Shown here piece after piece: positions 15,685-53,155 of a DNA stretch of 64,000 bases (positions within the stretch are counted from its first letter, which is position 1; every line of letters begins with the position of its first letter). The translations under genes were made by a program, and so were the position numbers. The stretch is taken from NCBI RefSeq assembly GCF_003855255.1, contig NZ_CP034072.1, forward strand, positions 1,603,723 through 1,667,722, read 5' to 3'. The notes under the pieces are model-generated. The model was given only the letters and a program-made list of their open reading frames with translations. It was not told the DNA's origin and did not search any database. The DNA is from Mycolicibacterium nivoides (GTDB lineage Bacteria; Actinomycetota; Actinomycetes; Mycobacteriales; Mycobacteriaceae).

Positions 15685-16143
15685 GTGAACATCTGGATCG
15701 GACAGGCCCGGCGCCGCGTCGGCGGTGAGGTGCCCGCACCGCCCGAGCAGGTGCGGGCCTTCTACGTCGACCTGGACAACATCTCGCAGGTGCACCCGCT
15801 CGTGCAGTGGGTGCGCAGCACGTCCCGGGTGGACCTGGCCGACGGGTATCGGCAGGACTATCAGGTGCGCGATCGAATACCGTTGGGGCCGTTGGCGCTC
15901 CCGATCACCTACCGGGCCCGGCTCATCGTTCCCGCCGTGGGTCCGGTGACCGCGCAGGCCCGGCAGTTCCCGCAGGTGAGGCTGGACAGCCGGGTGGACT
16001 TCGCGGCCACCGGGACCGGAACCCGGATCACCGAGGAGTTGACCATCGCCGCGCCCAGGCCGTTGCTGGCGATCACCGTGAAGCAGGCGGTTGCTGCCCA
16101 CGCCACGATGCTGGCGGCCATCGGAAAGCTGTTCGCGGCCTGA
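15685..16143 (+). CDS. SRPBCC (START-like) lipid-binding protein
   Basis: A 152-residue protein with the SRPBCC/polyketide-cyclase pattern. It runs GEVPAPPEQVRAFYVDLDNISQVHPLVQWV at the N-terminus, then long beta strands, and a C-terminal helix (LAITVKQAVAAHATMLAAIGKL). The GTG start at 15685 is 5 nt after the P450 stop. Such proteins carry hydrophobic ligands, and here it may bind the P450 substrate or product. It is the last gene of the SDR-P450 operon and is followed by the long inverted repeat at 16158-16233. Confidence 0.8.
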   Translation: MNIWIGQARRRVGGEVPAPPEQVRAFYVDLDNISQVHPLVQWVRSTSRVDLADGYRQDYQVRDRIPLGPLALPITYRARLIVPAVGPVTAQARQFPQVRLDSRVDFAATGTGTRITEELTIAAPRPLLAITVKQAVAAHATMLAAIGKLFAA

Positions 16144-16157
16144 ACTGAGGCCCAACG

Positions 16158-16233
16158 TTTTTCCGCGAGCAGACGCGTATGTACCCGGAAATCGCGGATT
16201 CGGGGTACATACGCGTCTGCTCGCGCGAAAAAA
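16158..16233. repeat. Long perfect inverted repeat between convergent genes
   Basis: Two 23-nt arms (16164-16186 and 16203-16225) are perfect reverse complements. They contain the core GCGAGCAGACGCG and end in GTACCC. The 16-nt centre (GGAAATCGCGGATTCG) is itself nearly palindromic (AATC-GCG-GATT). Outside the arms, a T run on the left and an A run on the right also pair, with one unpaired base, so the folded RNA would be close to 30 bp. It lies between the convergent SRPBCC and FadD genes. Because the T and A runs pair with each other, neither strand shows the normal stem-then-U-tract of an intrinsic terminator. It may be a two-way terminator or a mobile palindromic element. Confidence 0.85.
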
Positions 16234-16247
16234 GGGGGCTCGTCGGG

Positions 16248-17921
16248 CTACGAGGTGGCGACCGCCTCAGCGTGCTCGGTGGCCACCGTCTTCGCCCAGC
16301 GGTAGTCGGCCTTGCCGGCAGGGGAGCGCACGATCTGCGGGGACCGGACGAACGCCTTCGGGATCTTGTAGCGCGCGATCGAGCGCTCACACACCGCCGC
16401 GAGATCCTCGTCGGTGGCCGAGGCGCCCTCGGCGAACTGCACGACCGCCACGACCTCGTTGCCCCAGCGCTCCGACGGGCGGCCGACCACGACCACGTCG
16501 TAGACGGCGGGGTGCGCGGCGACGGCCCGCTCGACCTCTTCGACGAAGATCTTCTCGCCGCCGGAGTTGATGGTGACCGAATCCCGGCCCAGCAGCTGAA
16601 TACGCCCGTCTTCCAAGACATTTGCCCGGTCACCCGGAACCGCCCAGCGGACCCCCTCGATGGTGGGGAAGGTGCGTGCGGTCTTGGCCTCGTCGCCCAG
16701 GTAGCCGAGCGGGATCAGATCGCGCCGCGCCAGCCAGCCGCCGCTCTCGCCGGGGCCGAGCACCCGGGACAGATCCTCGGCCACCACAGCTGTGTCGGAC
16801 TGGGCGTTGAAGGTGGCTGCCTCGGAATCGGTGCCTGCGGTGGAAGCGGTGCTCATCTGGGTGCCCGACTCCGAGGAACCCACGGCATCGAGCAACATCA
16901 GATGCGGCAGCGCGGCCAGGATGCGCTCACGCACGGTCGGGGACAGCGGCGCGCCGCCGTTGGTGATCGTGAACAGACCCGACAGGTCGTAGTCGCCCTT
17001 CTCGATCTCGTCGATCAACGGTCGGGCGATCGCATCGCCGACCACCGGGATGCTGAGCACCCGTTCGCGTGCGGCCAGCTCCAACACGTTGTCCGGGCGC
17101 ATCTTCACCACATCGTCGGGGATGACGAGCTTCCCGCCCATGGTGATGGCGTTGTAGGCGGCCCACTGCGCGGCACCGTGCATGAACGGCGGGATCATCA
17201 GCAGCGACAGCCCGCCGCCGGCGGTGGCGGCCCGCTCGGCGAGTTCCTCGTACGACGCGATGAAGGTGTCGCTGCCGAACGGCCGGCCACCCATCGAGGA
17301 CAGGAAGATGTCGTGCTGGCGCCACAGCACGCCCTTGGGCATGCCGGTGGTTCCGCCGGTGTAGAGGACGTACAGGTCATCGCCCGACGGAGTCGGCATC
17401 CCTGCTGGGGGCGCAGGGGTTTTCAGGATCGTCTCGTAATCGACGGCACCCGGCAGGAGCTCGTTGCCCGATTCGTCGGCGACCTGGATGAGCACCTGCA
17501 GATTCGGCAGCTGGTCGCGGATCGCGGCCACCCGGGGCGCGAACTCGGCGTTGTAGATCACCGCCCGGGCGTTCGAATCCTTCAGCAGGTAGAGGAGTTC
17601 CTCCTCGACGTAGCGGTAGCTGACGTTGAACGGTGCCACCCGGGCGCGGTAGCTGCCGATCATCGACTCGAGGTACTCGTTGCCGTTGCGCAGGTAGATG
17701 CCAAGGTGGTCCTGACCTGATTCGTGTCCGGCCAGCCCGTCGCGCTCGGCGTGCGTGCCGAGACCGGCCGACACCAGGTAGTGGGCGAATCCGTCGACGC
17801 GCGCGTCGAAGTCGGCGTAGCTGAAACGGCGGTCCCGCCACACCAGGAAGGTTTGATCGGGCACGGCTTTGGCCACCGTGGAGAACACTGTGGACAGGTC
17901 GAACTTCACGTCAGCGCTCAT
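16248..17921 (-). CDS. Acyl-CoA synthetase, FadD19/FadD17-like
   Basis: A 557-residue ANL ligase. The P-loop reads LYTGGTTGMPKGVLWRQHDI, the A5 region is VGSSESG, and the C-terminal lysine motif is SPAGKADYRWAK. The GGTTG...GVLWR P-loop and the SPAGKxDYRWAK ending are features I recall from mycobacterial FadD19-type ligases, which activate C24-C27 sterol side chains. A sterol or bulky lipid acid is therefore the likely substrate. Start at ATG 17921 with AGGAGT 6 nt before; the frame is open 13 codons further. It stands alone between a secreted protein and the inverted repeat at 16158-16233. Confidence 0.88.
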   Translation of the reverse strand: MSADVKFDLSTVFSTVAKAVPDQTFLVWRDRRFSYADFDARVDGFAHYLVSAGLGTHAERDGLAGHESGQDHLGIYLRNGNEYLESMIGSYRARVAPFNVSYRYVEEELLYLLKDSNARAVIYNAEFAPRVAAIRDQLPNLQVLIQVADESGNELLPGAVDYETILKTPAPPAGMPTPSGDDLYVLYTGGTTGMPKGVLWRQHDIFLSSMGGRPFGSDTFIASYEELAERAATAGGGLSLLMIPPFMHGAAQWAAYNAITMGGKLVIPDDVVKMRPDNVLELAARERVLSIPVVGDAIARPLIDEIEKGDYDLSGLFTITNGGAPLSPTVRERILAALPHLMLLDAVGSSESGTQMSTASTAGTDSEAATFNAQSDTAVVAEDLSRVLGPGESGGWLARRDLIPLGYLGDEAKTARTFPTIEGVRWAVPGDRANVLEDGRIQLLGRDSVTINSGGEKIFVEEVERAVAAHPAVYDVVVVGRPSERWGNEVVAVVQFAEGASATDEDLAAVCERSIARYKIPKAFVRSPQIVRSPAGKADYRWAKTVATEHAEAVATS

Positions 17922-18005
17922 GGCACTCCTGGTGTGCGCGGATTCGGGCTCCACGACCATACATGGACCACTTGGCTGTATGGCCTAGGGGATGTGACCC
18001 GCGCC

Positions 18006-52833: not shown

Positions 52834-52932
52834 CCCTCCCTCCCGACCAGACACCTAGGTGCCCCGTATCCGGTGATGCGGGGCACCTGCGCGTCGGTTC
52901 GCGGCTATGCGGAGAAGCCGGTGGATGCCCGG

Positions 52933-52938: not shown

Positions 52939-52956
52939 GAGGGACGCATCGCCCTC

Positions 52957-53155
52957 GCGCGGGAGAGCTTCGTGACAGCCAGCCACGGACGCCGAAGGAG
53001 CAATACCTCTCCGTCAACCTCTCAGGCACCCAGGACCGCGCCAGGCCCCGATGCCTCTGGAAAGTGGTGCCCGCTGGGCACCCGCCCATGGGGAAAAGTC
53101 CTGTACCGGGACTGAATCTCTCAGGCGCCCGGACCGGGTCGACGACAGAGGGAGA
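52957..53155 (+). promoter_or_regulatory. Tandem glycine riboswitch
   Basis: Two glycine aptamers ahead of gcvP. Aptamer 1 (52957-53041) has P1 halves GCGCGG and CCGCGC and the conserved GGGAGAG, CGCCGAAGGAGCAA and CTCTCAGGCACC elements. Aptamer 2 (about 53049-53155) has GGGGAAAAGTCCTG and CTCTCAGGCGCC, and ends in GACAGAGGGAG. About 7 nt link them, as in other tandem glycine riboswitches. High glycine should turn on gcvP. No terminator hairpin with a U tract is seen before GTG 53202, so control may act on translation (AGGGGAG at about 53191). Confidence 0.92.

Follow-up and report, generated by a model that had tools for sequence, protein, structure and literature searches.

A 60-nt hairpin between two convergent genes belongs to a mycobacterial family of candidate two-way 3'-end elements

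Our analysis of a 64,000-nt stretch of mycobacterial DNA (the window) points to a role of the hairpin at positions 16165-16224 as a genus-specific two-way 3'-end element that would act on RNA from both genes flanking it, a reading to which we give a probability of roughly 0.68. Judged from its sequence, the hairpin is genuine, looks functional and is best placed within a known mycobacterial kind (TRIT or I-shaped terminators), not in a new class. What is added here is the fixed unit length, the division of the stem into sequence-kept and pairing-kept parts, a set of 392 U-less transcript-side ends, a sister arm type and the turnover of sites.

The hairpin unit is 60 nt long and is bounded by the outer arms GCGAGCAGACGC and GCGTCTGCTCGC, two 12-mers offset by 48, as is usual in the family. 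Two 23-nt arms on the forward strand, at 16164-16186 (5' arm) and 16203-16225 (3' arm), are perfect complements and enclose a partly self-complementary centre or loop of 16 nt (16187-16202). A preliminary description of this DNA had recorded a near-30-bp perfect hairpin built from two such 23-nt arms around an almost palindromic centre. The arms are indeed perfect, but they measure 23 bp unless a T/A extension is counted, and the palindromic character of the centre amounts to just three further pairs in the minimum-energy fold. The extension consists of a T run (16158-16162, +) and an A run in the purine-rich 3' flank (16228-16233, +), which pair into a longer stem by direct reading as well as by folding, with a single unpaired (bulged) C at 16226 between the 3' arm and the A run; the stem at this site is 23-29 bp long. 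This mutual pairing leaves both strands without a U tail past the hairpin, as had already been proposed, and none was seen on either strand when 16158-16233 was read directly. The T and A runs are an extreme of a flank trait of the family, not a terminator tail; the pyrimidine-rich 5' flank of the focal copy is a family trait as well. The segment 16158-16233 folds at -57.4 kcal/mol on the plus strand and -55.8 kcal/mol on the minus strand, with a z-score of -11.6 on both; none of 200 shuffles folded as well, and the hairpin tops the list of 24 inverted repeats in the 64-kb window. The early judgement that such a structure is unlikely by chance agrees with these figures, and the z-score together with the existence of the family rules out a chance origin.

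The element does lie between convergent genes, whose ends at 16143 (+) and 16248 (-) are 104 bp apart. Gene 1 (15685-16143, +; start codon from our own gene-calling script) follows a cytochrome P450 gene (14495-15679, +) and stops 21 nt before the unit. Its product is SRPBCC-like, the match to Polyketide_cyc2 scoring 24.4 bits, below the curated cut-off of 27.4. Gene 2 (16248-17960, -) encodes an AMP-binding acyl-CoA synthetase-like protein, and its stop lies 23 nt from the unit. Two tiny stems with U runs flank the element, at 16137-16152 (+) and 16254-16239 (-). We give them little weight as terminators: the plus-strand stem folds at a z-score of -0.64 (the minus-strand one was not folded), and 14 sites of this type occur in 16 kb against 6.2 in shuffles. 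As the median gap between stop codon and hairpin is 10 nt, most family copies leave scant room for a tiny terminator outside the gene.

Rfam returned no family at its gathering threshold on the focal hairpin, which microRNA models match only below threshold; the sole match at that threshold in the window was a glycine riboswitch at 52950-53048 (54.8 bits, above the gathering score). A second, looser family member lies nearby in tandem context, at 52843-52902 (47.2 bits, fold z-score -4.3), 9 nt past a stop codon and 47 nt ahead of the riboswitch. This terminator-like stem parts the upstream gene from the riboswitch-led gene.

The exact 12-mer GCGAGCAGACGC has 41 matches in the 6.9-Mb genome against 2 for the reversed control; 35 of these fall in 29 hairpins and six lie outside hairpins. 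A covariance model was built from 28 of the 29 hairpins (alignment A1, one 61-nt copy being omitted), whose rows had been selected for an exact 12-mer in one arm. In the same genome it produced 149 strand matches (E<=1), which merged to at least 77 elements, a lower bound obtained by scoring the best 150 of 2925 candidates. A score of at least 28 bits was reached by 72 of the 77, the weakest stands at 19.4 bits, and the focal copy has the top score of the genome (83.9 bits). The suggestion that this is a recurring mycobacterial intergenic palindrome is supported: the 12-mer recurs, instead of occurring once per genome, and the elements lie most often between convergent genes. The focal copy stands at the perfect end of a looser family, with only 4 of the 77 copies having 20 or more contiguous perfect pairs and a median of 22 pairs out of 30 possible, and the reading of perfection as a mark of function is not supported. 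A gapped pattern permitting units of 48-72 nt was also run over the genome collection and found at least 118 loci; the 118 listed were used for unit length, 98 for gene context, and 80 for the pairing, loop-word and G-U counts.

Placement relative to genes follows gene ends. Using genes called with our own codon-usage script, not curated annotation, 46 of the 77 elements in this genome are convergent, 30 tandem and one divergent, and none lies inside a called gene; element-free gaps of at least 60 nt at the same loci comprise 7 convergent, 65 tandem and 61 divergent cases (n=133). The distance from stop codon to hairpin has a median of 10 nt (93 ends of 59 elements scoring at least 40 bits), with 90 of the 93 ends within 26 nt, one at 59 nt and two beyond 1 kb. 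In the relative G262, 31 of 52 elements are convergent and 21 tandem, and the median distance is 9 nt. A pooled set was assembled from this genome (limited to the 72 of 77 elements at 28 bits or more: 43 convergent, 28 tandem, one divergent), from G262, from three more genomes (their 64 best-scoring loci) and from the pattern search, which contributed 66 loci, namely those among the 80 that lie more than 400 nt from locus ends. It contains 146 convergent, 100 tandem and 7 divergent elements and one inside a called gene (n=254). The larger pattern set gave 52 convergent, 41 tandem and 5 divergent cases among the matches listed (n=98), and a median stop-to-hairpin distance of 11 nt (145 ends, again among the matches listed). 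A two-way terminator had been among the first suggestions made for this site, and with 46 of 77 copies between convergent genes, a two-way 3'-end element is now our best reading.

The family has one hallmark of the canonical intrinsic terminator, a stable G+C-rich hairpin past the stop codon. The other, a U-rich tract directly past the stem, is absent: in the pooled set, not one of 392 transcript-side ends, the focal site included, carries TTTT in the 12 nt that follow the hairpin, and a canonical U-tract terminator is thereby ruled out. The T fraction at these ends is 0.143 after the stem and 0.256 before it. Flanks are pyrimidine-rich before and purine-rich after the unit in tandem and convergent copies alike.

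Unit length is nearly constant: among the matches listed, it was 60 nt in 98 of 118, 59 nt in 11, 61 nt in 8 and 50 nt in one. The inner arms are held together by pairing. The 98 sixty-mers form 8.46 of 10 possible inner pairs, a figure that falls to 5.80 for arms drawn from two different elements, and alignment A1 contains 86 double-change cells against 46.0 when shuffled and at most 45 when slid. This genome and G262 have 23 sites in common, and 54 of the 77 elements have no counterpart among the G262 element loci, the sites themselves having been examined in G262 for the focal one alone. Divergence was counted at 18 of the 23, the other five being omitted because they carry indels or a nested insert. 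Changes affect 19/216 and 12/216 positions (9% and 6%) in the outer arms, 65/216 and 54/216 (30% and 25%) in the inner arms, 84/216 (39%) in the loop and 71/216 and 95/216 (33% and 44%) in the adjacent flanks. Among the inner-arm changes, 26 are double changes that preserve the pair; at 41 of the 216 inner pairs, just one of the two species can form the pair. These comparisons indicate that the base of the stem is mostly sequence-kept, the inner stem mostly pairing-kept and the loop hardly kept, with the conservation of the outer arms being partly a matter of ascertainment, as the model and pattern that find the copies reward outer arms. Gene conversion between copies is not needed for the strongly changed inner arms: since the adjacent flanks differ by 33-44%, drift with compensation is enough.

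The loop is otherwise free, despite the recurring word CGGCGTGT: the word or its complement occurs in 14 of 77 elements of this genome and 20 of 80 others, where single-base shuffles predict about 0.1. Selection on RNA should leave tandem copies with more G-U than A-C mismatches along the sense strand. The counts were 108 versus 79 in three sets but, in the opposite direction, 2 versus 7 in a fourth (three genomes), or 110 versus 86 when pooled (p 0.10); convergent copies gave 124 versus 133.

The family is found almost only in Mycobacterium sensu lato. In the window's genus (33 genomes) the exact 12-mer occurs 775 times and the control 45 times, with 2-147 copies of the 12-mer per genome and an excess over control in 32; in 17 other genomes of the taxonomic family the counts are 64 and 40. 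Outside that family, in the other 198 of the 248 genomes of the order, counts are far below the high genus values yet not always at control level, with single genomes reaching 19 (G011, 19 versus 12; G041, 19 versus 3). Of 59 genus genomes, 54 contain covariance-model matches at E<=1e-6, and the number of strand matches per genome ranges from zero to at least 77, so that the idea of a species-specific family had to be abandoned. Three of the 118 listed pattern loci (L140, L153, L237) come from metagenome bins with the labels Acidobacteria, Actinomycetes and Bifidobacterium breve, probably misbinned mycobacterial contigs; their hairpins have perfect outer arms. The titles of the remaining 115 name Mycobacterium, Mycolicibacterium, Mycolicibacter or Mycobacteriaceae. 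A phage or plasmid origin was rejected, the exact pattern having no match in viral contigs and blastn none in phages and plasmids.

To follow the focal junction, we searched 148 genus genomes for the synthetase, found it with a strong match in 52 and read 30 loci (our own and those of 29 relatives). A convergent SRPBCC gene is present at the synthetase junction in nine of the 29 relatives, and in seven of these nine the hairpin is absent: in L257-L262, where the synthetase is 92-97% identical and the genes are 3-30 nt apart (L258 and L259 being almost identical), and in the more distant L265. L264 retains an 8-nt half-arm joined to a flank that is present also in our genome, a scar, and L263 carries a 60-nt family hairpin with different inner arms, a diverged copy. 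In the synthetase gene tree, L262, L263 and L264 group together with weak support, beside our genome and L257-L261. The scar and the diverged copy argue for an older element, and the sequences fit best with an old element that has suffered repeated losses at this junction; regain or exchange between lineages is possible. The alternatives first offered, recent origin or strong selection, thus meet a mixed outcome: the seven of nine relatives without the element would suit the former, yet the scar and the diverged copy speak for greater age.

Further hairpins share the layout with other arms. A sister family with the outer arm GCGAGCGACCG has a 60-nt unit and 11 copies at 82% median pairwise identity (L110, L115, L117, L118, L119, L121, L124, L127, L128, L129 and L136). 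Its left arm is nearly invariant, several copies have TGCACC/GGTGCA outside, and it looks recently copied. At least three more sister copies lie at 1533394, 2399022 and 4765571, and one hairpin of GCGAGCGTGGG type at 2893458. In G279, a 61-nt hairpin of GCGAGCGTGCG type (L281) lies downstream of the acyl-CoA synthetase relative and seems to represent yet another arm type built to this layout. We also found a 26-27-nt repeat starting with TCCCCCGCAAGCGGG inside one outer arm of 12 hairpins (L357-L361 in our genome, and L319, L366, L368, L378, L381, L382 and L384), directly after CGAGCAG in 9 of the 12. The 15-mer TCCCCCGCAAGCGGG occurs in 67 of 98 genus genomes, outside hairpins too, and the repeat may be a tiny mobile one with hairpins as its targets.

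These observations can be assembled into a model. From the position, symmetry and pairing of the element, RNA polymerase finishing either convergent gene would copy one shared 60-nt hairpin into RNA some 20 nt beyond that gene's stop codon. The stem would then fix the 3' end of the mRNA and prevent either transcript from running into the facing gene. As the stem has no U-rich tract after it in either direction, we read the hairpin as a probable pause and barrier rather than a classical intrinsic terminator; release would probably be aided by NusG/Rho just downstream, and exonucleases would trim back to the stem. This route of assisted release and trimming, taken alone, is a tentative proposal to which we give somewhat less than even odds. 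Within the ascertainment noted for the outer arms, the 12-bp stem base largely keeps its sequence and the unit keeps its 60 nt, which suggests that the stem base is read by something, possibly RNA polymerase with Nus factors or a nuclease. In a bolder version, the element would be a sequence-read punctuation mark: the 12-bp base of the fixed 60-nt stem would be recognized by some mycobacterial factor, or by a trait of RNA polymerase or NusG peculiar to mycobacteria, which would end transcription both ways without a U-tract, and at least one further arm type (GCGAGCGACCG) would be a dialect in the same genome. We regard this as unlikely. For the two-way 3'-end role as such, inner-arm covariation and placement past stop codons count in favor; the inner pairs that form in just one of two species, the share of outer-arm conservation owed to ascertainment, and the seven of nine relatives that manage the same junction without the element count against it.

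One sub-case of the 3'-end role, the nearest rival to assisted release, dispenses with Rho and trimming. In a direct, U-less (I-shaped) intrinsic terminator, the stable stem alone would dislodge RNA polymerase in both directions. The fold of -57 kcal/mol suits this, and the absence of a U tail and a position within 50 bp of the stop codon fit the description excerpted from PMC12288462. The requirement for a U-tract is contested, however, the same excerpts citing papers with opposed titles, and stem strength alone leaves unexplained both the conservation of the outer 12-bp sequence and the 60-nt rule; this version seems to us rather doubtful. That near-constant length, with the 23-29-bp stem at the focal site, would also suit an RNase III/RNase J site, where the duplex is cut or blocks degradation and so sets 3' ends after termination further downstream. 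Family members with a median of 22 of 30 pairs and internal mismatches make poor candidates for such a duplex, and we think the explanation improbable.

A further rival acts in DNA, where a protein could recognize the palindrome, whether duplex or cruciform, and turn it into a roadblock for polymerase, for example, or a nucleoid mark, in the manner of REP/BIME: there are two 12-bp half sites at fixed spacing, both strands are used symmetrically, and the pooled G-U count (110 versus 86, p 0.10) does not speak clearly against it. Such a DNA-level site has a low likelihood in our estimate, as a protein reading two half sites has no need of inner arms that co-vary to pair (a cruciform would), and placement tracks stop codons. 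The same placement, about 10 nt past stops, and the compensated inner arms point to selection and so weigh against a selfish or mobile palindrome for which gene ends are no more than tolerable sites, although the range of zero to at least 77 strand matches across 59 genus genomes, the turnover of presence and absence at the focal junction and the recently copied look of the 11-copy sister family (82% median identity) would be natural for one. With no exact-pattern match in viral contigs, no blastn match in phages or plasmids, and a scar in G084 that suggests deletion, we hold the selfish explanation to have a small chance.

The family offers a uniform natural set with tens of copies per genome in many of the genomes searched. 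Two convergent genes often share one stem, and among the copies the outer sequence varies independently of the inner pairing, the length and the flanks, as each of these does of the others. Close relatives provide natural comparisons, such as the focal junction with and without its hairpin. The family bears on how mycobacterial transcripts end with few U-tract terminators, a matter of dispute according to the excerpted text of PMC12288462. Should it be true that a factor reads the stem base, this would be a new termination mechanism.

Among known systems, the REP/BIME elements of enterobacteria are dispersed intergenic palindromes at gene ends. Both they and the present family are found at gene ends, including between convergent genes, but sequence and unit length differ. 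The paired DNA-uptake-sequence terminators of Neisseria and Haemophilus likewise mark gene ends with inverted pairs of one short, fixed word, as this family does. Unlike those systems, the family has few lone copies of its word (6 of 41 outside hairpins), and we dropped the analogy for that reason. The RNIE work of Gardner and colleagues from 2011 reportedly described TRIT, the tuberculosis Rho-independent terminator, as a conserved structured motif enriched at M. tuberculosis gene ends. We give the focal family the TRIT label provisionally, from circumstance and from likeness in description. A conserved structured motif enriched at mycobacterial gene ends is indeed what we found in the genomes studied here, among whose identified names M. 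tuberculosis does not figure. Compared with TRIT by that description, what has been measured for this family is the 60-nt rule, a stem with sequence-kept outer and pairing-kept inner parts, the sister arm type and site turnover. Excerpts of PMC3526491 name a TRIT model of the RNIE authors for M. tuberculosis. As we read the sequences, a primer for M. tuberculosis pckA has the 12-mer 1 nt past the stop codon (PMC5843633) and an Rv1219c EMSA primer contains it (PMC4155686); the exact string was matched also in a paper on intestinal stem cells.

The closest likeness by structure is to the I-shaped terminators of mycobacteria, which, in passages of PMC12288462, have no poly-U and lie within 50 bp of stop codons. 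The family likewise has a U-less stem soon after the stop codon, at 21 and 23 nt for the focal copy and within 26 nt at 90 of 93 family ends. The I-shaped class, as it appears in those passages (PMC12288462), is defined by structure, and to this the present family adds a largely fixed outer sequence and a fixed length.
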